Shown piece by piece: positions 10,894 to 43,008 of a stretch of DNA of 43,008 bases. Positions within the stretch are counted from its first letter, which is position 1; every line of letters begins with the position of its first letter. Source of the stretch: a virus; IMG/VR virus record IMGVR_UViG_3300021961_000195, positions 1 through 43,008 of that record; one strand, written 5' to 3'. Both the position numbers and the translations under genes were made by a program. The notes under the pieces were generated by a model. It was not told the origin of the DNA and made no database searches. It was given only the letters and a program-made list of their open reading frames with translations.

Positions 10894-11382
10894 ATGGGAA
10901 TACGTGGACGAAAAAAGACCCCAGTAGGGCAGGCGTGCCGAAACGGGCACCCTTACAATCGAAGCCAAAACGGCGACTGTCGGGATTGCCGTCGGGAACG
11001 TAAGCGGCGTAGTCGTAAAAGTAAAGGCAGAAAGCCCCCCACTTGGCTTGGGGAGCTGACGTGGGTTTGGTTTGCGAGGAAAGCGCTTCGGAAGCACAAG
11101 CGCCACGCAGGTCCGCCCCCGTCGCTAGAGGCTCTTGTCGGACTGTGGAGGGCGCAAGCCGGTCGCTGCGCTATAACGGGGCTGCAGATTGAGGGAACAC
11201 CGCACCTTGACCACAAGATCCCTGTTTCAGCTGACGGAACAAACGACATCAGCAATCTTCAGTGGACTAGCGCCGAAGCCAATTATGCCAAGGGCATCAA
11301 AACAACAGCGGAAGTCCAGAGTTGGCTTTTGGCGGCAGCTGACAGTCTTCGCGCCAGGCAGGCTCTTGATGGCCTGCTTTAG
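10894..11382 (+). CDS. HNH endonuclease
   Basis: A 162-residue HNH nuclease lying between the terminase genes. The N-terminus carries a zinc-finger-like group (Cys15, His19, Cys29, Cys32) and a strongly basic stretch (RRERKRRSRKSKGRK) for DNA binding. The HNH core follows: RCAITGLQIEG at 91-101, Asp106-His107, Asn121 and Asn130 (SNLQWTSAEAN). HNH proteins next to terminases often assist packaging cleavage, but this position is also typical for free-standing homing endonucleases. The start at 10894 leaves almost no 5' leader if the nearby promoter is used. Confidence 0.88.
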   Translation: MGIRGRKKTPVGQACRNGHPYNRSQNGDCRDCRRERKRRSRKSKGRKPPTWLGELTWVWFARKALRKHKRHAGPPPSLEALVGLWRAQAGRCAITGLQIEGTPHLDHKIPVSADGTNDISNLQWTSAEANYAKGIKTTAEVQSWLLAAADSLRARQALDGLL

Positions 11383-13294: not shown

Positions 13295-13479
13295 TGGCCA
13301 AGAAGCCGAACCCGGCGATTGAGAAGCTGAAGCGCGACCTGGCCCGGCAGCCGCGGGCGGTTGTGCCGGAAGGGGTGCAGCCGTTGAACGAAGGATTTTT
13401 CAGGGTGCAGGCGTTGCGCGTGAGCCGGCAGGCCAAGCTGCGCAGCGCCGTGGCACCCAAGCTACGAGGCAATCGGTGA
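13294..13479 (+). CDS. 61-residue basic hypothetical protein
   Basis: A very basic small protein (MAKKPNPAIEKLKRDLARQP...KLRGNR) joined to both neighbours by overlaps: TGATG at its start and GTGA at its end with the portal gene. The ATG at 13294 is chosen over the in-frame TTG one codon upstream. Its charge suggests contact with DNA or an acidic partner near the portal. No family recognised. Confidence 0.72.
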   Translation: MAKKPNPAIEKLKRDLARQPRAVVPEGVQPLNEGFFRVQALRVSRQAKLRSAVAPKLRGNR

Positions 13480-15128
13480 ACGAAGACCAGATCAATTTCC
13501 ACATCCAGAAGCTCGGCGCGCTGAAGCAGGACCGGGCGAACTGGGATACGCAGTGGGAGGAAGCGGCGTCGCTGATCCTGCCGGCGCATCGCAACTCATT
13601 TCAGGGCGAGGGCACGGATAATCAGTTCGGCGGCTCCGGCCAGAAGAAAACAGAGTTGCAGTTTGATGCCACGGTTGGCATCGCTTGTCAGCGGTTTGCC
13701 AGCGTGATTGAATCTCTGGCCACGCCGCAGAACAACATGTGGCACCGACTGGTGCCGGCGGACAAGATGCTGAAGCGCAATCGTGCCGTGCGTATGTTTT
13801 TTGACGACCTGAACGAATTGCTGTTCAACCATCGCTATCGCCCGGTTGGCAACTTCGTGGGCAACAGTCAGCAGGTTTATCTTGGGCTGGGCGCATACGG
13901 CAACGGGTCGTTGTATGTCGACAAGCCGGAAGACCAGAAGGGGCTGCGCTATCGCAACATTCACCTGGGCGAATCTTACTTCGTGGAGAATCATGCTGGG
14001 GTGGTGGACACGTTGTACCGCCGGTTCTACATGACCGCGCGCCAGATTTCGCAGCAGTTCCGGCAGCCTGGCGACACGGTGCCGGATGAAGTGACGGAGA
14101 AGGTCAAGAACCCGAACCAGGCCGAACAGAAACTGGAAGTTCTGCACTGCGTCTACCCACGTTCTGACTTCGACCCGCGGCGCGTGGACCCGAAAGGCAT
14201 GCGTTACGCCTCGGTCTACATCTACTGCCAAACCAAGACGCTGATGCGGGAGTCGGGCTACCAGAGTTTCCCGTTCCCGACCGCGCGCTACACGCAGGTC
14301 AGCGGCGAGACGTATGGCCGCGGTCCGGGCCAGTGGGTGCTGCCGGCGATCAAGGTGCTGAACGAAGAAAAGAAAACGATGCTGAAGCAGGGGCATCGCG
14401 CAGTGGACCCGGTGTTGCTCTCGCACGACGACGGCAACTTGGGGTCATTCAGCCTGAAGGCGGGGGCACTGAACCCTGGCGGTGTCAGCAAGGAAGGGCG
14501 GGCGTTGATCCAGCCGCTACCGACCGGGCGCTTCGACATCGGCGACAAGATGATGGAGATGGAGCGCACCACCATCAACGACGCCTTCCTGATTACGTTG
14601 TTCCAGATTCTGATAGACACGCCGCAGATGACGGCGACCGAAGTGCTGGAGCGGGCGCGGGAGAAGGGCATGCTGATTGCGCCCACCGCAGGCCGGCTGC
14701 AGGCCGAGTTCCTGGGGCGCTTGATCGAACGGGAACTGGACCTTTTGTTCCAGCAGGGCTTGATTCCGCCGAACATGCCGTCTATACTACGGGATGCAGA
14801 AGCGGCTGAATACCACATCGAATACGACAGCCCGATGTCCCGCATGGCTCGGGCCGAGAAAGCCGCCGGCTTCATGCGCGCCCTGGACGTGGCCGCGAAC
14901 TACGCCAAGAACACGATGGACCCGTCACCATTGGACTTCTTCAACTTTGACAGCGCAATGCCGGAGATTCTGGACATTCAAGGCGCGCCCGCCGCATGGA
15001 CGCGATCCCTGGACGAAGTGATGGTCATTCGTCAGAAGCGCGACGAGGCCGCGCAAAACCAGCAGATGATCGAAGCCGCACCCGCAGTGGCGGGGCTGGC
15101 GAAGGCAATTCCACCGCAGGGGGCGTAA
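13476..15128 (+). CDS. Portal (T7-type head-tail connector) protein
   Basis: A 550-residue protein of the podovirus head-tail connector family (T7 gp8-like). It forms the dodecameric ring at one head vertex through which DNA enters and leaves and to which the tail attaches. Characteristic segments are DWTQ-like WDTQWEEAASLILPAHRNSF (about residues 23-42), RFASVIESLATPQNNMWHRL (about 68-87) and DAFLITLFQILIDTPQMTAT (about 369-388). The length fits the family. The GTG at 13476 overlaps the upstream stop, with GAGG before it. The order small terminase, large terminase, portal supports the call. Confidence 0.93.
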   Translation: MNEDQINFHIQKLGALKQDRANWDTQWEEAASLILPAHRNSFQGEGTDNQFGGSGQKKTELQFDATVGIACQRFASVIESLATPQNNMWHRLVPADKMLKRNRAVRMFFDDLNELLFNHRYRPVGNFVGNSQQVYLGLGAYGNGSLYVDKPEDQKGLRYRNIHLGESYFVENHAGVVDTLYRRFYMTARQISQQFRQPGDTVPDEVTEKVKNPNQAEQKLEVLHCVYPRSDFDPRRVDPKGMRYASVYIYCQTKTLMRESGYQSFPFPTARYTQVSGETYGRGPGQWVLPAIKVLNEEKKTMLKQGHRAVDPVLLSHDDGNLGSFSLKAGALNPGGVSKEGRALIQPLPTGRFDIGDKMMEMERTTINDAFLITLFQILIDTPQMTATEVLERAREKGMLIAPTAGRLQAEFLGRLIERELDLLFQQGLIPPNMPSILRDAEAAEYHIEYDSPMSRMARAEKAAGFMRALDVAANYAKNTMDPSPLDFFNFDSAMPEILDIQGAPAAWTRSLDEVMVIRQKRDEAAQNQQMIEAAPAVAGLAKAIPPQGA

Positions 15129-15304
15129 TGGGTCAAGCGGCAGATGAACTGATGGCAGGAACAAAACAGCGCAGGCAGTCGACGCGGGAGCTTTTGCGTG
15201 ATCGCGTAAACCCCAACCTTGTTGAGCTGACTGAAGAAGAAAAGAAAAAACAGAAAGACCGGGACGTAACAGGCACCAAGACTATCGGCGGCGCACGCGG
15301 CTGA
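15128..15304 (+). CDS. 58-residue charged hypothetical protein
   Basis: A small charged protein (MGQAADELMAGTKQRRQSTR...) starting within the portal stop (TAATG at 15126). The middle (VELTEEEKKKQKDRDVTG) is a lysine/glutamate-rich helix. No membrane segment is present. It probably belongs to the head operon; unknown function. Confidence 0.72.
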   Translation: MGQAADELMAGTKQRRQSTRELLRDRVNPNLVELTEEEKKKQKDRDVTGTKTIGGARG

Positions 15305-15306
15305 TT

Positions 15307-15855
15307 GTGAAACTAAACCTTGGTAGCGGCGGGCGCAAGCTCGACGGTTATGTCAACGTCGACCTGCAGCCGGAAGAAACACCGGATGTAGTGTGCAACA
15401 TCGGACGTGACCGCTGGCCGTTTGATGACAACAGCGTTGACGAAGCTGAAGCATCGCACATCATGGAGCATCTGTCGACTCCGGAGTTGATGCACTTCAT
15501 GCGCGAGTTGTATCGGGTCTGCAAGCACGGTGCCGAAATCAAGATAACACTGCCGCATCCGAGGCACGACATCTACTTGAATGACCCAACGCATCAGACT
15601 CCCATTCTACCGGCGACGTTGCTGATGTTTTCAAGAGGACAGCTGGAAGCATTGCGAAAACAAGGCAAGCAGTTGACTCCGTTTTGGAAATACACAGGGG
15701 TTGACTTCAAGCTAGACTCAATGGTAAAGTGGCGCTTTAGTGAAGGCGTTGACCCGGACGACAAAGATATTTCTTGGAAGATGACGCATCTGAACAACAT
15801 TATTCAGGAATTTAGCTGCACTATTCGTGCAGTGAAGGCTACGGATGCCGTTTAG
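15307..15855 (+). CDS. SAM-dependent methyltransferase (class I)
   Basis: A 182-residue class I methyltransferase in the head cluster. The SAM site opens the protein (KLNLGSGGRKLDGYVNVDLQ, motif I GSG and the acidic Asp at the end of strand two), followed by the WPFDDNSVDEAEASHIMEHL segment (motif II/III region) and LYRVCKHGAEIKITLPHP, as seen in enzymes acting on small molecules, sugars or proteins. The GTG at 15307 lacks a strong Shine-Dalgarno. GC is lower than in the portal gene. It lies two genes from a glycosyltransferase, so the pair may modify a sugar or a virion protein. The substrate is unknown. Confidence 0.85.
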   Translation: MKLNLGSGGRKLDGYVNVDLQPEETPDVVCNIGRDRWPFDDNSVDEAEASHIMEHLSTPELMHFMRELYRVCKHGAEIKITLPHPRHDIYLNDPTHQTPILPATLLMFSRGQLEALRKQGKQLTPFWKYTGVDFKLDSMVKWRFSEGVDPDDKDISWKMTHLNNIIQEFSCTIRAVKATDAV

Positions 15856-16111
15856 TGAAGTTGTCGAGGCAGCACGCCGCTGGTTGTTTCGGCGTCGCTA
15901 TGCCTACCAGACGACGTTCAAAGGACCGCTGGCGCAGGAAGTTCTGCGCGACCTGGCGCTGTTCTGCCGGGCAACCGAGTCGACGTTCCATGACAACGAA
16001 CGGGTGCAGTCCAAATTGGACGGTAGGCGCGAAGTGTGGTTGCGAATCAGCGCGCATCTGAATCTGTCGCCTGAAGACCTCTGGCGGCTTCTTGACGGAA
16101 GGGATGACTGA
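15845..16111 (+). CDS. Bbp19-like small phage protein
   Basis: An 88-residue protein (MPFSEVVEAARRWLFRRR...) resembling the Bbp19 family named after Bordetella phage BPP-1. The diagnostic run is YQTTFKGPLAQEVLRDLALF, then CRATESTFHDNERVQSKLDG and RREVWLRISAHLNLS. The family lies between portal and capsid genes in BPP-1-like phages and others. Its function is not established, and an assembly role is likely. It begins inside the methyltransferase stop region and ends in a TGATG overlap with the glycosyltransferase gene. Confidence 0.78.
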   Translation: MPFSEVVEAARRWLFRRRYAYQTTFKGPLAQEVLRDLALFCRATESTFHDNERVQSKLDGRREVWLRISAHLNLSPEDLWRLLDGRDD

Positions 16112-17136
16112 TGTATCGTGACGGCAAGCAGGTATTGACTTCGCACGTCCACAGTTTCATTCTCAACCATGGCGCTCTCGGGGACGTGATCTGCTCCCTG
16201 CCGGCGATCGTCAACGCGCGGCAGCGCGTCAGCGACATCGTGGCGATGAAGGTCTACTGCCCGCCGTGGCAGGCTGAGTTGCTGGAGCATCTGCTGGCGC
16301 CGTACGGCAAGTTCACGGTGCGCAGCATCGCCGAGTTCCCGCTGGAGCGGGCGAAGCGGGAGGACTGGGACGGCGGGCCGAACTCGCTGAACGCCGCGGT
16401 CCACAACACCCACACCCGCAACCGCGTTCACATGGTCGACTACGCATTCAACTACCTGCTGGACGCGCGGCCGGAAAACATGCTGGAGCGCAGCTACCCG
16501 ACCGCTGCGCCGATCGGGCCGCGCTATCCTCTGCTGGACGAGCCGTATGTCGTCATCCCGGTTGGGGCCACGTCGGACAACAAGCTGTTCAAGGCGCACG
16601 TCATGGGGCCGATTATCCAGTGGCTGGCTGACAACGACCTGACGCCAGTGCTGGTCGGCACCAAGGTCAGTCACACCCAGGCCGAGATGGGAAGCGGCGT
16701 TACGGAGAAACTCGTCATCCGTGACGAGATAGAGAAACTGCCCGCCGAAGTGGTTGCTTTGTGCGTCGACCTGCGCGAGAAGACGACACTGCTGGAACTG
16801 CGTGATCTGTGCGGGCACGCGGAAGCGGTCGTCGGCGTCGACGGCGGCACGTTGCACCTGGCCGGCACCACCGACACCAACATTGTGTATGCGATGGGTA
16901 CGACGTTGCCGAAGCACCGGTATATTGCGCGCGGCGGCGACCCGAACCACAAGATACGGTATGTCGGCCCGCGTGATCTGGAATGCGCGGGCTGCCAATC
17001 CAACTGGGCGCTGTCCCGGTGGGATTTCCGGTTCTGCGCGTACGGCGACAACAAGTGCATGGATCAACTGCACCCTGACGATTTTATCAACGGACTGAAG
17101 GAGCTTTTATGGCCGAAGCAGACACCACTACTGTAG
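16111..17136 (+). CDS. Family 9 (heptosyltransferase-like) glycosyltransferase
   Basis: A 341-residue GT-B enzyme resembling family 9, the ADP-heptose:LPS heptosyltransferases. N-terminal FILNHGALGDVICSLPAIVN (about residues 17-36) matches the first Rossmann strand and the GDxxxxxP motif. In the C-terminal half, TPVLVGTKVSH, TTLLELRDLCGHAEAVVGVD and GGTLHLAGTTDTNIVYAMGT form the nucleotide-sugar pocket typical of this family. It may alter host lipopolysaccharide to block later phages or to decorate the virion. Finding it between portal and scaffold is unusual. It ends 28 bases inside the scaffold gene. Confidence 0.88.
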   Translation: MYRDGKQVLTSHVHSFILNHGALGDVICSLPAIVNARQRVSDIVAMKVYCPPWQAELLEHLLAPYGKFTVRSIAEFPLERAKREDWDGGPNSLNAAVHNTHTRNRVHMVDYAFNYLLDARPENMLERSYPTAAPIGPRYPLLDEPYVVIPVGATSDNKLFKAHVMGPIIQWLADNDLTPVLVGTKVSHTQAEMGSGVTEKLVIRDEIEKLPAEVVALCVDLREKTTLLELRDLCGHAEAVVGVDGGTLHLAGTTDTNIVYAMGTTLPKHRYIARGGDPNHKIRYVGPRDLECAGCQSNWALSRWDFRFCAYGDNKCMDQLHPDDFINGLKELLWPKQTPLL

Positions 17137-17957
17137 CCGACACCACGACCGCCGCCGACACGACTACAACGGCAACCACGACCGCCCCCTGGCACGGCAT
17201 TACTGACCCGGATGCCGCGGCCTACGTGACTAACAAAGGCTGGCAGTCGCCCGCCGATGTCATCAAGTCCTATCAAGGAGCGGAGAAACTGATCGGCCGG
17301 GATCCGTCGACGCTGGTGCAGTTGCCGCGCGCAGACGACCCGGAGGGCACCCGCGCGCTGTTCCAGAAGCTCGGCCTGCCCGAGTCGCCGGACAAATACG
17401 ACATGAAGGTCGGGCTGCCGAAGGACGCGGCGATCAATGAAGATTTTGCCAAGAACATGCAGGGGTTGCTGCACAAGGCAGGCATCGTACCCAGCCAGGC
17501 GCAGGAATTGATCGGTGGCTACAACGCAATGCTGCTGGCGCAGCAGGAGCAGGCAGCCAAGGATTATGAACTGAACGTGGCCGCCGACAAGCAGGCGCTG
17601 AAAGACGAATGGAAGGGCGGTTACGACCGGATGTTCAATCGGGCGCAGAACGCCGCCACCAAGCTCGGGTTTACGCCTGAACTGGTGGACGCCATCGAGA
17701 AGCACGTCGGCTACGCGGGCACCTACAAACTGCTGGCGGACATCGGAGCTAAGTTGGGCGAGGACGGGTTCGTCGGAGAAGGCAAGACCAACTTTGAAGG
17801 CGAACTGACCCCGGCTGAAGCCAAGAACCAGTGGGATTCTAAGAAGCTCGACCAGAACTTCATGGCCGCGCTTACGGACGCCAGCCACCCGGGCCACAAA
17901 GCGGCGCAGGAACTGCAGACCAAGCTGTTCAAGATCATGTATCCTGAAAACAAGTAA
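17109..17957 (+). CDS. Head scaffolding protein
   Basis: A 282-residue protein placed just before the capsid gene, as expected for a scaffold. Residues 1-26 are a Thr/Ala/Asp-rich flexible tail. The middle (DVIKSYQGAEKLIGRDPSTL, then a helical region to about 250) carries the pattern seen in podovirus scaffolds (LGLPESPDKYDMKVGLPKDA). The C-terminus (ELQTKLFKIMYPENK) is basic and amphipathic, suited to contact the capsid shell. AAGGAG lies before the ATG at 17109. It is followed directly by an intrinsic terminator. Confidence 0.88.
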   Translation: MAEADTTTVADTTTAADTTTTATTTAPWHGITDPDAAAYVTNKGWQSPADVIKSYQGAEKLIGRDPSTLVQLPRADDPEGTRALFQKLGLPESPDKYDMKVGLPKDAAINEDFAKNMQGLLHKAGIVPSQAQELIGGYNAMLLAQQEQAAKDYELNVAADKQALKDEWKGGYDRMFNRAQNAATKLGFTPELVDAIEKHVGYAGTYKLLADIGAKLGEDGFVGEGKTNFEGELTPAEAKNQWDSKKLDQNFMAALTDASHPGHKAAQELQTKLFKIMYPENK

Positions 17958-18042: not shown

Positions 18043-18177
18043 ATAGGAAATACGCGCGGACAAGGTGAAAGCCCCCGCATAGCGGACTGCCTATCGGCCC
18101 CCGAGGTTGGGACAAGCCGGCGATCACCAGCCATATCGGTGAAAACTGACTTGTAATCAATTACTTAGGGGGCAATG
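18043..18177 (+). ncRNA. Structured 5' leader of the capsid gene with two anti-Shine-Dalgarno hexamers
   Basis: About 135 bases without a gene. GCCCCC occurs at 18071-18076 and again at 18097-18102; each is a perfect complement of GGGGGC (18168-18173), part of the capsid Shine-Dalgarno. A TCACC/GGTGA hairpin (18124-18128, 18138-18142) competes with another GGTGA at 18064-18068. The leader can therefore fold in alternative ways that hide or expose the ribosome site. I recognise no named RNA family. Confidence 0.5.
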
Positions 18178-19071
18178 ATGCCTGATAACATCACCGTCGC
18201 AGCGGTACAGCAATACCGTGCGAACGTCGAGCTGCTTCTGCAGCAAAAGGACTCGCGTCTCGCAAACGCGGTTATGAACCAATCTTTCGTTGGCAAGGCC
18301 GCCAGCGTCGTTGAGCAGTTTGGCTCCGCCACTGCGCAGCAACGCACCAGCCGTCATGCTGACACCCCGCTGCTTGATCTGTCGCAGGACAAGCGTTGGG
18401 TCTTCCCGTCCGACTACGAGTGGGCATCCCTGATCGACAATCAGGACCGCCTGCGCGCCATTGTCGAACTGACCAGCCCGTATGCCATGGCTGGCGCCGC
18501 CGCGATGAACCGTGTCAAGGACGACGTGATTCTGACGGCGATCTTCGGCACGAACTACACTGGCGAGAACGGCACGTCGACCGAGACGTTCGGCACGCTG
18601 GGTTCCGGCACCTACGATGTGGGCGTCAACACCGGCGGCACGGCGTCTTCGCTGAACGTGGCGAAGCTGCAAGCGGCCATCCGGATTCTGATGACCGCCA
18701 ACAAGGGCGAACTGGACGAGCCGGTTTACGGCGCAATTTCCAGCTACGAACACGACGCGCTCCTGAAGGAAGTGCAGATCGTCAACAAGGACTACGGCGG
18801 CAACGCCCTCCTGGTCGACGGCAAGGTCAAGCGTTTCATGGGGGTGGACTTCATCCTCACCGAGCGCCTGACGATCACTTCCGGCAACCGCCTGGTGCCT
18901 GTCTGGCTCAAGAGCGGCATGTGCCTCGGCATGTGGGATGGTGTCACCGCCAAGATCAGTGAACGCGCGGACAAAGGTCATGCAACCCAAGTCTACCTCG
19001 CCATGACCCTTGGCGCAACCCGTACCCAGCTGGGCAAGCAAGTCCGCATCAGCTGCGACGACCAAATCTAA
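18178..19071 (+). CDS. Major capsid protein
   Basis: A 297-residue major capsid protein of the phage_capsid_2 type (HK97-fold relative). Recognisable segments: TSRHADTPLLDLSQDKRW (about residues 58-75), DYEWASLIDNQDRLRAIVEL (about 80-99), AGAAAMNRVKDDVILTAIFG (about 107-126) and, near the end, ERADKGHATQVYLAMTLGAT. It lacks a cleaved delta domain, so a separate scaffold (17109) is needed. The ATG at 18178 suits AGGGGG five bases upstream; an ATG directly before it is possible. It has its own promoter and leader and is flanked by terminators, which fits high expression. Confidence 0.93.
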   Translation: MPDNITVAAVQQYRANVELLLQQKDSRLANAVMNQSFVGKAASVVEQFGSATAQQRTSRHADTPLLDLSQDKRWVFPSDYEWASLIDNQDRLRAIVELTSPYAMAGAAAMNRVKDDVILTAIFGTNYTGENGTSTETFGTLGSGTYDVGVNTGGTASSLNVAKLQAAIRILMTANKGELDEPVYGAISSYEHDALLKEVQIVNKDYGGNALLVDGKVKRFMGVDFILTERLTITSGNRLVPVWLKSGMCLGMWDGVTAKISERADKGHATQVYLAMTLGATRTQLGKQVRISCDDQI

Positions 19072-19083
19072 GGAGAGGCTGAC

Positions 19084-19587
19084 ATGGCATTAGTTTCATC
19101 TTCCCAAGTTGTAACCGACCAGTCGGCAGTTCCGGTCGTCAAGGTCAACTCGCAGGAAAAAGGCGCCCCGGTCCGCGTAGCCCATGGCTACCTCGCCGCG
19201 GCGAACTTTACCGGCGGCACCGCAGGCCAGTGGTACACTTTCGTTCGCCTGCCGGTTCGTGCGCAGATCATCGACATCAAACTGACTGGTGCCACCACGA
19301 CCAGCGGTGCGGTGAAGTGCGGTCTGTATCGTCCCGATGGCATCGCCATTGACGACGATGTGTTTGCCACGAACTACGACATGGCGGCTGAGAAGGACGG
19401 CACGACCATTCTGGTTACGCCGACCGCCCTGGAGCGCACGCAGACCATCGCTACCGCTTACGCCACTGCAATCGGCACCGCGGGCGCGACCAGCGACGCC
19501 GAAGTCGACATTGCACTGACGATCGTCACTGCCCTCGGCAGCGGCGTGAATCACGCAATGCACGTGCATTACACCCTGCCGGAATAA
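19084..19587 (+). CDS. Virion protein following the capsid, possible decoration protein
   Basis: A 167-residue Ala/Thr/Gly-rich protein (MALVSSSQVVTDQSAVPVVK...) 12 bases after the capsid stop, with AGGAG before the ATG. The sequence is beta-rich (GQWYTFVRLPVRAQIIDIKL, then GAVKCGLYRPDGIAIDDD) with a C-terminal helix-poor end (NHAMHVHYTLPE). It shares the capsid transcript and is followed by a terminator, which suggests production in similar amounts, as for a head decoration or stabilising protein. No family recognised. Confidence 0.8.
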   Translation: MALVSSSQVVTDQSAVPVVKVNSQEKGAPVRVAHGYLAAANFTGGTAGQWYTFVRLPVRAQIIDIKLTGATTTSGAVKCGLYRPDGIAIDDDVFATNYDMAAEKDGTTILVTPTALERTQTIATAYATAIGTAGATSDAEVDIALTIVTALGSGVNHAMHVHYTLPE

Positions 19588-36496: not shown

Positions 36497-36713
36497 GCAA
36501 TTCCTTCAACGGAATGCCCAGCATGTCCGCAGTGAACTTGTCCGGCCCGCCGCCTTTGCCATACTGACCGGCCATGCGGACGAGCGGCGCGCCCAGAATC
36601 CGCACCATGTCGCCGTCGCATACAGGACAGTAGGTTTCGTCCCGCTTTTCAATCTTGGCGAACTGCTCGCCCTTCCAGTCGCAACGGACGCAGGCGTAGT
36701 CGTAGAAGGGCAT
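36465..36713 (-). CDS. FmdB-type zinc ribbon protein
   Basis: An 82-residue protein with the classic FmdB-like opening MPFYDYACVRCDWKGE and a second CxxC (YCPVCDGDM), which together make one zinc ribbon. The rest (LGAPLVRMAGQYGKGGGPDK) is flexible. The family is widespread and its function is not settled; in phages it may regulate transcription. It is the last gene of the leftward arm and starts on the stop of the PAPS-reductase-like gene (shared base at 36713). Confidence 0.85.
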   Translation of the reverse strand: MPFYDYACVRCDWKGEQFAKIEKRDETYCPVCDGDMVRILGAPLVRMAGQYGKGGGPDKFTADMLGIPLKELPSGLRTEPSK

Positions 36714-37603
36714 TATTTTTCGCTCCAGTCAACTTCGCAGGACTCGACGCAGCCGCTGTCTAGGTCAAGGCCCACTGGCGCGTTGGCATAGACTACGGCG
36801 TCGTTCTCGGCCCGCTCCCACCCCCCGGCAGCGTGCATGGTGCGGAGGTCCGCCACGCCAAGGTTGCCGCGGAAGAACGTACGGCGGTAGCCCGGCACGT
36901 TCTTCTTCGCAAACTCCGGCCCCACCAATCCGTAGTTGCACTCCATGCGCTCAAAGAAGTCGAACGCGGCAGGGTCGTCGTCCATCACGGTGAGTAGTTT
37001 ACGGAACGACTTTTTCCAGCACGTTCTGCAGTTACCTTGATAACCGGCCAGGTTGAGCCGAAACGGCTGCTTCTGCCAAAAAGAATTGACCTGCGGCTTT
37101 GTCGTGGGCGCCCAATCCAACAACGGGTAGATGAGGCGGTCCGCCTCTGCTCTTGGAGAGCGCCTCCCTGACTCGTCTGCGCGAATGCCCACCGCCACAT
37201 GCCGTGCTTTAACCCCCCAACCCAAGCCGCGAACATAACTATCTATCGGTCGTTTTTTTAGCTCCCGCGTACAGCCGAAGAACTTACTGTTTGGTATGCC
37301 GAATTTTTTAATCATCGCCTCAAACGGTTCTCCGGCGCGGCTCGCTGTTTCAAACGACACAACCCGGTGGCCGGTGCCTTTGCCGGGTTCTGGGTTTACA
37401 TCAGCCTCCAACCACACCGTATTGAAACCAAACACCTTGTCGCATTGGTCAACGAACTCCAGCGTCTGCTCGTTCTCCTGTCCCGTGTTAGCGAACAACA
37501 CAACTGCTTCGTTGAAACGGTCGCGCCACTTAGTCAGCAGCAGCCGCGTCATCAGCGCAGATGTTTCCCCGCCGCTGAAGGAGATTACCAGTCGCTTTAT
37601 CAT
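36713..37603 (-). CDS. PAPS reductase-like adenine nucleotide alpha-hydrolase
   Basis: A 296-residue protein of the PAPS reductase/PP-loop group. The PP-loop (SFSGGETSALM, about residues 8-18) binds ATP or an adenylylated substrate, and VVLFANTGQENEQTLEFVDQ follows as in that family. Several cysteines appear later (FFGCTREL, CRTCWKK, and two near the end), which could bind an iron-sulphur cluster. Phage members are often called phosphoadenosine phosphosulfate reductases, but with neighbours that modify DNA this one could also serve sulphur transfer, for example to nucleic acid. That remains open. Start ATG at 37603 overlaps the previous stop (ATGA). Confidence 0.83.
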   Translation of the reverse strand: MIKRLVISFSGGETSALMTRLLLTKWRDRFNEAVVLFANTGQENEQTLEFVDQCDKVFGFNTVWLEADVNPEPGKGTGHRVVSFETASRAGEPFEAMIKKFGIPNSKFFGCTRELKKRPIDSYVRGLGWGVKARHVAVGIRADESGRRSPRAEADRLIYPLLDWAPTTKPQVNSFWQKQPFRLNLAGYQGNCRTCWKKSFRKLLTVMDDDPAAFDFFERMECNYGLVGPEFAKKNVPGYRRTFFRGNLGVADLRTMHAAGGWERAENDAVVYANAPVGLDLDSGCVESCEVDWSEK

Positions 37604-37818
37604 CAGTGCTTCGCCGCCCGAGCGGCCTGCTGCATCGGTTCTTCGATGTACTCGGCCATCAGGAACATCAGCCGGTCGGTGGCGAACTGCCGCGTGGCCG
37701 GACCATGGTTGACCGTGACGAACAGCACAACGTCCAGCAGGCTCTCCGCCGGCGCTTCATCCGGCATGCTGGCGGCCCGCTTGCAACGGTCCAAAAATAT
37801 GTCGTGTTGGTCGCTCAT
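37603..37818 (-). CDS. 71-residue hypothetical protein
   Basis: A small helical protein (MSDQHDIFLDRCKRAASMPD...) between the MT-A70 and PAPS-reductase-like genes, joined to both by four-base overlaps. The second half (TRQFATDRLMFLMAEYIEEP) looks like a long helix and could mediate contact with an enzyme partner. No family recognised. Confidence 0.72.
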   Translation of the reverse strand: MSDQHDIFLDRCKRAASMPDEAPAESLLDVVLFVTVNHGPATRQFATDRLMFLMAEYIEEPMQQAARAAKH

Positions 37819-38399
37819 GCAATCTCCACATCAGGGTTGACTTCGTTGCCCCACACCGCCCATCCGGCGCGAGGCTGCCGCGCGAACATTTCAAGGTACG
37901 GGCCGGGGCTGACTTGCTCAACCATCCAATAGAACTCCGGCGGCTTGGCCGAGTGCTGCGGGTAGCCGTTCTTGTACGGGCGTTTCCAGTTGAACCAAGT
38001 CGTGTTGACGTCGCACTTCGCGGCTAACGACCCGCGACGACAGAACAACACGTATTCGCTGGATATACCGTAACACCCGCCAAGGCCACTACCCTTCGGG
38101 TTTTTTGCCCAGGTCAGTAGTGTTGAGTAATTGAACCCCCATGCGCGCGCCACATCGAACGCCTCGTCAACGTAACGATTGATCGTCCACAAATACAGAT
38201 GGCAGTCATCGGCGGCGGGAATCCGAAGCGCCGCTATCTCTTGCACCGTCATTGTCGGGTAAGCAAGCGGTCGAGCGGCAGCAGTTCCGCCAGCAGACCA
38301 AACCTGCTTTCCGCCAACCACCTTATAAGTACCCAAGGCTCTCCCGGCCTTTACGTCCCACGGGGGATCAGCAACAATAGTCGCAAATGTCACTCGCAT
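37815..38399 (-). CDS. MT-A70-type DNA N6-adenine methyltransferase
   Basis: A 194-residue MT-A70 methyltransferase that should methylate adenine at N6 in DNA. The catalytic DPPW is at residues 11-14 (IVADPPWDV). Other marks are LYLWTINRYVDEAFDVARAW, the segment LTWAKNPKGSGLGGCYGISS, HSAKPPEF and, near the end, MFARQPRAGWAVWGNEV. This matches the phage/IME4-like branch. It may protect phage DNA from host nucleases together with the C5 methyltransferase. The ATG at 38399 overlaps the preceding gene by 10 bases. Confidence 0.92.
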   Translation of the reverse strand: MRVTFATIVADPPWDVKAGRALGTYKVVGGKQVWSAGGTAAARPLAYPTMTVQEIAALRIPAADDCHLYLWTINRYVDEAFDVARAWGFNYSTLLTWAKNPKGSGLGGCYGISSEYVLFCRRGSLAAKCDVNTTWFNWKRPYKNGYPQHSAKPPEFYWMVEQVSPGPYLEMFARQPRAGWAVWGNEVNPDVEIA

Positions 38400-40231: not shown

Positions 40232-42249
40232 TTGCCGTATCGCTCCATGATCCCGCAGTCCGCATGCAACGGAAACCCTGCCGCCCATGCCGGCGGGGTT
40301 CGCATGTGGCGCTCCATATCTATTTTAGTTGCACCTGAATCAGCAAGTGCAACTTCCAAATTACAGTCGTCATGCGTGTGCAAAACGATCGGATAGCCTT
40401 TTGCGTCCAGCGCCAGCATCACTTCCGCCAACAGGTCACGACATGTGCCTTGAATAATATTATTGAACAGACTGCCGCCGTAGGTGCCGATGCGCGCCCA
40501 GTTGCTGGTGTTCTTCGGGTCATGGATGATCTTGCCCTTGCGCCGATCCTCCTGACTTGGCACGGTCATGTAGGTCAACTGCGGCCCGAACTGCCCTTCC
40601 AGAATCTTCGGATACGGATAGCAGATCGCCCGACCAGAGGGTAGCAGGCACCACAGAAACGACCCGACCATGCGGAACTTGGCTTGTCTGCCGGGGTAGC
40701 CGCACTCGCGTATCGTGTCCGGATTCTTGACGGCGGCAATGGCGGCGTTCTGGATGTCGTACCACACGCCCTTGATGCGGGGGTGCGCATTGCGCCACGC
40801 TTCCTTAAACTTGTCCGCTTCCGCGTCCGGCACTTTCACCCCGTATGTCTTGGCCATAACGTGAAATGACCCGACGCCGCCTTGATAGCCGAAGGCCAGT
40901 TCCGACACTTTACCAACCTGGCGTTCCTCTGAGGGGTTCTTGACCGACTCAACCGGGACTCCGAACATCCGAGCATACGCAAGTTCATAAATACCCGGCC
41001 CGGTTTTATTGTCCGCTGCCCTGAAGGCGTCCAGCTTCCAGCTTTCACCAGCGAACCAAGCCTGGCCACGGCCTTCGACGTTGGCAAAATCGCCCGATAT
41101 GATCCGTTTGCCCTTTGGCGCAACGAAAAAACTTCTAAGGCAACTGGACACCACACTGAGCGGAGGACCGTATATCGCGTCAATCGCATCATGCTCTCCC
41201 TTCCGGACGTGTTCAAGGATCCGTTCAACCGCCTCGGCCTTCGGCATGTTGCGCGGCAGGTTGTGCGTCTGCACTGCGCGCCCAGCCCAACGTCCGGTGC
41301 CGGCGCCGTGGTATTGATACATGTTGCGCAGCCGGCCGTCTTCGCCAGCCTGATTCAGCATTACGTTGAACTTGGCGTTGCTGGCTTTTCCGGCTTCTTG
41401 GCGGAGCGTAAGCACCCGTCGAGCGTCAGGCCCGACAGCAGGATCGTCCAGAAGGTCGACCACATCCTGCTTGGCGAGGCCGACGAGGGCACGTTCGCAC
41501 CCGTTGTTAGCGAGCCATTCCTTGATCGGCCCCAGCGCCGTGCAAGTTGTCGCTGCGCCATCTGTCGCCTTCGCCATTTCGTCATCGTAGCGTTCCTTCA
41601 TGGTGTCGGCCAGCTTGACCGCAGCCTTGGCGCTGGGGATGTCGATCTGCACGCCACGCTGGTTGATTTTATAATCCAGCAACCAGACCTTGCGTTCCTT
41701 GGCGGACAGGGGCATCAACCGCTTGCGCGTGGCGCGTTCGACTTCCACGTCAGTTTTGCAATACTCATACAGGCGCGCTTTTTTCTCCGGCTCGTCCCAC
41801 CACACCAGGGGCTTCCCCGGCTTGCTGCGCGGGCGGCACATGCGCAGCATCAAAGCGTAACCTTCCGTGTCCTTACGAACGTGCAGTCCGAGCGCCATCG
41901 CCGCGTCTTCCAGTCTGCCAGGCAGCCCCATCGCGTAGCCAAGAGCCATTGAGCAGTAACCCTGTTCAATCCGCATCTCTGGCCAGCCATATTTGACGGC
42001 GACCTGGTTGTTCAGTGCAATTTCAAACGGAAAGTTCCACGCCGTTACCGCGCCGCCAGCAGCAATGTGTTCATACACCCGCGGCGGGCATGGCTGACCG
42101 GGCACCCACAATTCGACTGGCTCGTCGTTAAACGCATAGGCTCCGCACCATATGTCAGTTGTCGAATGGCGACTGTAGTTCCACAGCCCGACCTCTTTCA
42201 AGTCAAGGACGCTGCGGGTTTCCCAGTCCAGTGCGAGTGAATCAGTCAA
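40228..42249 (-). CDS. Family A DNA polymerase with 3'-5' exonuclease
   Basis: A 673-residue replicative polymerase. Exonuclease motifs: LALDWETRS at the front (Asp/Glu pair, residues 5-13), AWNFPFEIALNN (exo II) and YEYCKTDVEVERA (exo III). Polymerase motifs: ISGDFANVEGRGQ (motif A), ERQVGKVSELAFGYQGGVGS (motif B with Arg, Lys and aromatic pair) and VLHTHDDCNLEV (motif C). These differ from textbook E. coli Pol I in the way of podophage polymerases. The ATG at 42249 is followed at its far end by a GTGA overlap with the primase gene. It replicates the phage genome. Confidence 0.95.
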   Translation of the reverse strand: MTDSLALDWETRSVLDLKEVGLWNYSRHSTTDIWCGAYAFNDEPVELWVPGQPCPPRVYEHIAAGGAVTAWNFPFEIALNNQVAVKYGWPEMRIEQGYCSMALGYAMGLPGRLEDAAMALGLHVRKDTEGYALMLRMCRPRSKPGKPLVWWDEPEKKARLYEYCKTDVEVERATRKRLMPLSAKERKVWLLDYKINQRGVQIDIPSAKAAVKLADTMKERYDDEMAKATDGAATTCTALGPIKEWLANNGCERALVGLAKQDVVDLLDDPAVGPDARRVLTLRQEAGKASNAKFNVMLNQAGEDGRLRNMYQYHGAGTGRWAGRAVQTHNLPRNMPKAEAVERILEHVRKGEHDAIDAIYGPPLSVVSSCLRSFFVAPKGKRIISGDFANVEGRGQAWFAGESWKLDAFRAADNKTGPGIYELAYARMFGVPVESVKNPSEERQVGKVSELAFGYQGGVGSFHVMAKTYGVKVPDAEADKFKEAWRNAHPRIKGVWYDIQNAAIAAVKNPDTIRECGYPGRQAKFRMVGSFLWCLLPSGRAICYPYPKILEGQFGPQLTYMTVPSQEDRRKGKIIHDPKNTSNWARIGTYGGSLFNNIIQGTCRDLLAEVMLALDAKGYPIVLHTHDDCNLEVALADSGATKIDMERHMRTPPAWAAGFPLHADCGIMERYGK

Positions 42250-42255
42250 AGCAGA

Positions 42256-43008
42256 TCAGCCAAGCATGTAGGCTGAGATGACTTCGGCCGCGACCTGCGG
42301 GACAATCGCGTTGCCGTAGGCGCGCAGGCGTCCCACTCTTGCGGAAGCCCCATGAGCCAGCGGGAATGTGCCGGGTTCAACTGGCCGCCACTTTCCATCC
42401 CGGCAGTGGAGCCAGTCAGCATTTCGCCAGTGGCCGTTAGTCGGGCCGGGCCTTCCACATTCTTGACCAACTCCTGATTGCCCAACTCCGTCGAGCGATC
42501 CCCGCCCCGTTTCCTGAAACTGTCCACGGACGGGGTTTGCCAGTGGCCCAACTGCGTCGCGCTGTGCAGCGTGTCCGGTCTGCCGTGATGTGCCCCCGTG
42601 CTCTCGCTGTCCTCCCGCCGTGGTGTCGGCCACCCCGCCAACGTGCCCAGCTGCGTGAGACTGCTGCCGGTCATGTCGGGCGTCATCGTTCCCGCCCGTT
42701 TGCCGTCCGTTGCGGATGGCGTTGTCCACCCCGCCAGATGCACGGCCCTGCCTAGCTGATCGTGGCGGTTGCGATCCTCCACACATTTCCAAGTATCGGG
42801 GTCGCTGGAATCCTTGTGGTCCCTCGCGCTCGGCGTCGGCCACGAACCACAATCGTTGACGGATATGCGGCGCCCCGAAGCCCGCAGCAGGGATACCGGC
42901 CGCTGCGAAGGCGTAACCGATTCCTTCCAGGTCAGCTTAAACAAGGTCGAGCCAGCCGTGGCGGATCGCTGCTTCAACCTGTTCACCAAAGACGACCGCA
43001 GGTTTGCA
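42256..43008 (-). CDS. DNA (cytosine-5-)methyltransferase, C-terminal part (continues from base 1)
   Basis: The rest of the C5-cytosine methyltransferase begun at 520-1. Seen here: FGAPHIRQRLWFVAD (motif VIII-type region), a variable target-recognition stretch with a Gly/Gln/His-rich composition, and the ending RVGRLRAYGNAIVPQVAAEV (motifs IX-X), all in the frame that stops at 42256. The part at 42813-43008 duplicates 1-196. In this copy A at 42939 changes Gln132 (CAA) to a TAA stop, so the copy read alone would be truncated after residue 131. The intact left copy lacks it. Another open frame (42246-42989) covers the same DNA but lacks these motifs. Confidence 0.9.
42813..43008. repeat. Right copy of the terminal direct repeat (contig overlap)
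   Basis: Duplicate of bases 1-196 with one mismatch at 42939 (A, versus G at 127), which creates an in-frame stop in the methyltransferase. See the left copy for interpretation. Confidence 0.97.

Follow-up and report, generated by a model that had tools for sequence, protein, structure and literature searches.

Why are a methyltransferase and a GT9 glycosyltransferase encoded among the head-assembly genes of this virus? The question is raised by the window, which is the entire IMG/VR record of 43,008 bp. A preliminary description had placed a SAM methyltransferase (MTase), a Bbp19-like gene and a GT9 gene between the portal and the scaffold genes. The ORFs of the window agree exactly with the coordinates given for these three genes, and profile matches bear out their identities; a 58-codon ORF in the same interval had been overlooked. 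The features of the region are as follows:

13476..15128, plus strand: portal (head-tail connector) protein (PF12236, E 1.6e-97; phrog_332)
15128..15304, plus strand: 58-codon ORF (MGQAADEL...), its start overlapping the portal stop; L002 and L003 carry counterparts
15307..15855, plus strand: class I SAM methyltransferase, MTase (Methyltransf_11, 23.8 bits against a cut-off of 21.2; phrog_6636 'methyltransferase', E 2.7e-15)
15845..16111, plus strand: Bbp19-like small head-module protein (Phage_Bbp19, PF25181, E 2.9e-11)
16111..17136, plus strand: GT9 glycosyltransferase (PF01075 Glyco_transf_9, 32.8 bits against a cut-off of 22)
17109..17957, plus strand: scaffold or assembly protease-like protein (phrog_3742, E 4.8e-37; phrog_458)
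18175..19071, plus strand: major capsid protein, MCP (PF19821, E 6.8e-68)
19084..19587, plus strand: probable cement (decoration) protein of type A, candidate acceptor (synteny, weak profile match, covariation with GT9)
19462..19509, plus strand: Thr-rich segment ATAIGTAGATSDAEVD, residues 127-142 of the cement protein, speculative acceptor loop

The MTase, Bbp19, GT9 and scaffold genes form an overlapping string, in which the GT9 start codon overlaps the Bbp19 stop. The window also encodes a DNA polymerase and a primase, and a tail fibre or tailspike-type protein. An HNH gene (10894-11382) lies ahead of TerL; in the relatives, many different intergenic sites of the head module have received HNH or endonuclease VII-type genes (L005, L014, L022, L032, L033, L034, L036, L048, L064). 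Three minus-strand genes (36713-37603, 37815-38399, 42246-42989) encode a PAPS reductase-like protein and two DNA methyltransferases. A role in DNA modification was set aside, because these two DNA methyltransferases are far off and on the opposite strand.

Conservation of the portal-scaffold stretch

BPP-1-like podophage heads (BPP-1, BcepC6B, ct8d5349) share with the window the order portal, Bbp19-like gene, scaffold, MCP and post-MCP gene. Unlike the window, the two BPP-1-like head modules annotated here have no GT9 or MTase gene between portal and scaffold.

The first set of relatives consisted of 57 loci collected by profile-guided IMG/VR scans with GT9. GT9 lay between Bbp19 and scaffold in all of them wherever the flanks were present. 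Because these loci had been chosen by GT9, further sampling was done by MCP and by portal. The complete portal-scaffold stretch was present in 125 loci. GT9 was found there in 77, of which 42 had an MTase of the window type, 34 had no MTase and one had an unrelated FkbM MTase. Forty-seven loci had no GT9 in the stretch, and all 47 also lacked the MTase there; in the one remaining locus both genes were remnants. Removal of near-copies left 15 loci with MTase and GT9, 15 with GT9 only, one with FkbM and GT9, one with the remnants and 35 with neither. Relatives without GT9 show the plain portal-Bbp19-scaffold order, and the Bbp19 gene occurs both with and without the enzymes. In L168 (3594-3856) the interval from portal to GT9 shows no Bbp19 ORF, possibly owing to a frameshift or assembly error; the ORF is present in the close relative L049.

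The preliminary description had recommended a search of related podophages for co-location of the genes. Recurrence in dozens of relatives, at GT9 identities of 41-81%, indicates that the arrangement is real and not due to chance. The description had also called the pairing unusual, and this is true among isolates: a tblastn search of INPHARED phages gave no match to the GT9 of the window. MTase matches among isolate phages were set aside, as they share about 40% identity or less and lie in unrelated contexts. A single relative, L129 (39 kb, GT9 64% identity), is an Acidobacteria MAG contig, which is too weak a basis for assigning Acidobacteria as the host.

In the first set a single change on the portal tree accounts for the loci without GT9 (support 99/97); the larger set requires two to three. 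Since so few changes are needed, GT9 was apparently acquired a single time, close to the base of the clade, and retained from then on. MTase presence changed nine times, at least six of these changes being forced by supported branches. All nine fall on the GT9-bearing part, which makes up 42% of the tree length (0.42^9 = 4e-4, a rough figure). The two genes are therefore not only neighbours but linked, as the earlier description had supposed. Further support comes from L061, in which the unrelated FkbM MTase (PF05050, E 1.3e-15) stands between Bbp19 and GT9, from L166, in which the MTase is directly 3′ of GT9, and from the joint decay of both genes in L067 (see below). The pairing had been considered open to refutation if relatives carried only one of the genes, in unrelated places. 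This is mostly not the case, apart from two distantly related genomes. In L274, whose head module is without GT9 and whose cement protein was found by a type-B query, a distant GT9 homologue (L274:5-373, G309) with a comparable Cys cluster stands immediately ahead of TerL. In L258 a distant MTase is located downstream, in a tail region. Because of these homologues sited elsewhere, the coupling is not absolute.

The glycosyltransferase and its methyltransferase partner

The phage GT9 belongs to PF01075 by its score above the Pfam cut-off, by the GT-B fold of its AlphaFold model (pLDDT 87) and by the conserved acidic residue of its N-terminal GD...LP motif. The family, the fold and the motif are shared with WaaC and WaaF, and D25 aligns with D13 of WaaC. 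Conserved positions are D25, K158, D244-G245-G246, H249 and the four cysteines 292/295/309/316; among these, the catalytic-site residues D25, K158, DGG 244-246 and H249 are invariant in 37 diverse sequences (41-81% identity). This argues against GT9 being an inactive structural or assembly protein, a reading that would fit its location in the head module and its retention independently of the MTase. Moreover, L067 and L212 have lost GT9 while their core head genes stay and only the cement type differs. We regard an inactive GT9 as highly improbable.

Fold matches of the GT9 model (Z 20-24) were TibC (4RB4; Z 23.6, 285 positions aligned), a Veillonella GT9 (3TOV; 22.7), WaaF (22.5) and WaaC (20.3). 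The top three are about tied, and ranking TibC over WaaF by fold was rejected as not decisive. TibC, of the TibC/Aah (BAHT) group, is a protein O-heptosyltransferase with an iron finger formed by C339/342/358/370 (PMC4358343). The window GT9 has a four-Cys cluster near its C-terminus (C-x2-C-x13-C-x6-C) that resembles this finger, with a different spacing. The N-terminal beta-barrel domain of TibC is missing in the phage protein of 341 amino acids, whose residue 1 aligns with residue 73 of TibC. As a mark of a protein acceptor the Cys cluster is weakened by the Cys clusters of some other bacterial GT9s. The NCBIfam equivalog cut-offs are not reached for BAHT (TIGR04414, 12.5 against 200 bits) or for LPS heptosyltransferases I/II (TIGR02193, 36.4 against 185.3 bits; TIGR02195, 27.6 against 134.6 bits). 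Since the folds are about tied, the curated cut-offs fail and Cys clusters occur elsewhere, fold and family, as judged from sequence and model, would suit a protein and an LPS acceptor alike.

The preliminary description had offered two functions, LPS remodelling and decoration of the head. In the former, GT9 would add a sugar to LPS core intermediates late in infection and the MTase would finish that sugar. This would keep progeny from being trapped on debris or make the cell resistant to superinfection. LPS is the classic GT9 acceptor, and the best-known GT9 enzymes are LPS heptosyltransferases, including the close fold matches WaaF and WaaC. Fast divergence is frequent in host-facing functions, and in some pairs the GT9 and MTase alleles outpace the neighbouring structural genes: for L056 and L091, DNA identity is about 80-90% in the flanking portal and scaffold genes and about 57-76% in MTase-Bbp19-GT9. 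The tail fibre or tailspike-type gene would also be in keeping with LPS remodelling. However, GT9 stays far below the heptosyltransferase I/II cut-offs and, unlike WaaC and WaaF, is found in a phage head-gene setting. The gtr seroconversion cassettes (e.g. PMC3688519) are, as here, phage-borne surface-glycan genes, but they include a GtrA flippase and GtrB (GT2), neither of which was found in the window or in five relatives searched; a match to the tyrosine-integrase family is likewise absent from the window. LPS remodelling also leaves unexplained the position of GT9 among head genes and its covariation with the cement protein, described below. As the main function we consider it unlikely; head decoration fits better.

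The partner enzyme is placed among class I SAM methyltransferases by the Methyltransf_11 cut-off, the GxG motif and the fold, its AF2 model (pLDDT 93.8) giving class I MTase fold matches. GxG, D19 and PHPxH...LxDPTH are invariant. Its GC3 is 0.61, compared with about 0.8 for TerL, portal, GT9 and MCP, and this lower value suggests that the MTase is probably a later arrival than the neighbouring core genes. Such a compositionally distinct and sporadic gene could belong to a moron-like pair that merely happens to reside in the head operon and that has a housekeeping effect in the host cell or acts on small metabolites or nucleotides. HNH and endonuclease VII genes do insert in the same region. 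GT9, however, is near-universally retained, and dN/dS values of about 0.05-0.4 in the pairs compared indicate purifying selection, whereas genes that are merely resident are usually more sporadic. This explanation is very unlikely in our opinion.

In three genomes that lack the MTase a sigma-70-like site lies in the post-portal gap (L033:1167-1235, L023:7636-7727, L212:3211-3262). TTGACA occurs near the portal stop in all three gaps, and L033 has TTGACA-17-TATCAT, which looks like a promoter placed at the MTase site to drive Bbp19 and the genes after it. A tie between such a promoter and MTase loss was rejected, because it is present in few loci only.

The probable cement protein and its covariation with GT9

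The protein encoded after MCP matches Bbp16 of BPP-1 by position. Bbp16 is a jellyroll cement protein of the outer capsid surface, where its C-terminus is exposed (PMC3863775). A profile search gave a weak match between the post-MCP protein and the solved cement protein 7EEL (E 0.018), and two PHROGs annotated as 'virion structural protein', phrog_8455 and phrog_486, are matched by its homologues. It is a probable cement protein. The C-terminal half is of type A in GT9-bearing phages and of other types in GT9-less phages, including type B in L067; wrong-frame rows (L015, L060, L091) were left out of this comparison. Unlike that of the window, the cement proteins of GT9-less relatives are not type A. 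The Thr-rich segment ATAIGTAGATSDAEVD is kept in type A proteins, and an LWxxLG...-like sequence is found there in type B. No single Thr of the segment is invariant, and its role as an acceptor loop is speculative. The Thr-rich N-terminus of the scaffold protein was rejected as an acceptor marker, since it is kept in L067, whose GT9 is deleted.

Among GT9-bearing phages the identity of the cement protein to that of the window is uneven (about 33-90%). It does not follow MCP identity, which suggests that the cement protein has been exchanged between lineages. Distances were compared by partial Mantel tests given MCP in 32 GT9-bearing loci, using HMM-based picks of the cement protein. Cement and GT9 distances correlated with r 0.74 (p 0.0002), cement and MTase with 0.53, GT9 and scaffold with 0.27. 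The scaffold and MCP genes separate GT9 from the cement gene, yet cement and scaffold gave only 0.06. With all subtypes included, the cement protein was the strongest head-gene partner of GT9 outside the MTase. Subtype A2 of the cement protein forms a single clade on the tree of that protein and, together with L113, on that of GT9. On MCP the A2 grouping takes four to five changes and is rejected (AU p 0.012), whereas it is not rejected by the scaffold data (p 0.495); both the subtypes and the tested group were defined only once the sequences were known.

Within GT9 subfamily I, correlation of GT9 with cement (0.31) was no stronger than with portal (0.65) or scaffold (0.46), and GT9 also correlated with g21944. 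The specific signal therefore comes from the deep subtype split, which represents few events, and from one loss lineage. The within-subfamily pattern would fit glycosylation of another virion protein (MCP, a tail or an internal protein), with the link to cement arising only because lineages are shared or have recombined. The leading place of cement across all subtypes speaks against this, as does the conflict of the MCP phylogeny with the GT9 subtypes, and we find it decidedly unlikely. Covariation at the sequence level provides moderate evidence for a link between GT9 and the cement protein.

Natural loss of the enzymes and the favoured explanation

L067 is close to the window (MCP 86%, portal 78%). 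It has separate internal deletions in MTase and GT9, and the Bbp19 gene between them is intact. No other GT9 was found in its 43-kb record. The core head genes are otherwise kept and the cement protein differs, being of type B. L067 is also without other genes of the window; the PAPS reductase-like gene and the two DNA methyltransferases are absent from its record. L212 was found by a scan with the L067 cement protein alone. It has a type B cement protein and lacks both enzymes altogether, so the prediction that type B cement goes with absence of the enzymes came true. L212 is a sister of L067 (portal 94.6%, MCP 89.6%; portal 77% and MCP 84% to the window). As the two form one lineage, they count as one loss event.

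The explanation that we favour, and to which we assign about equal weight for and against, is that the phage GT9 glycosylates the capsid cement protein, with optional methyl capping by the MTase. It draws on the single gain of GT9, its invariant catalytic residues, the variable MTase, the GT9-cement covariation and the L067/L212 lineage. GT9 would be made along with the head proteins and would transfer a sugar from a host nucleotide-sugar to a phage virion protein, the best candidate being the cement protein (19084-19587) encoded directly after MCP. The adjoining MTase, or a replacement enzyme like the FkbM of L061, may then methylate the glycan. A possible benefit is protection of the capsid or less sticking to debris. 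From the comparisons we infer the enzymatic activity, the donor (heptose or another sugar), the acceptor, the methyl target and the benefit.

Most documented cases of virion glycosylation by phage enzymes come from mycobacteriophages. Phage glycosyltransferases that modify capsid or tail proteins are cited for Che8, Corndog and Myrna (in PMC11256854, PMC12363180). There, as proposed here, phage-encoded glycosyltransferases act on virion proteins; the activity of the window GT9 is deduced from its sequence. In Maravista the glycosyltransferase genes sit near the 3′ end of the genome, outside the head module, whereas GT9 of the window lies inside it. In a limited literature search we found no earlier description of a head-module GT9 that tracks the cement protein.

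We tentatively suggest, with somewhat more doubt than assurance, that GT9 is a dedicated virion-protein glycosyltransferase in a large podophage clade, that swappable methyltransferases cap the cement glycan and that surface glycans vary between close relatives. If true, this would extend virion glycosylation to GT9, an enzyme family known for LPS. A GT9-cement pair in a widespread podophage head operon would name the likely acceptor in advance, and the function could be tested directly by setting GT9-bearing phages against L067/L212, a lineage that is without the enzymes by nature.
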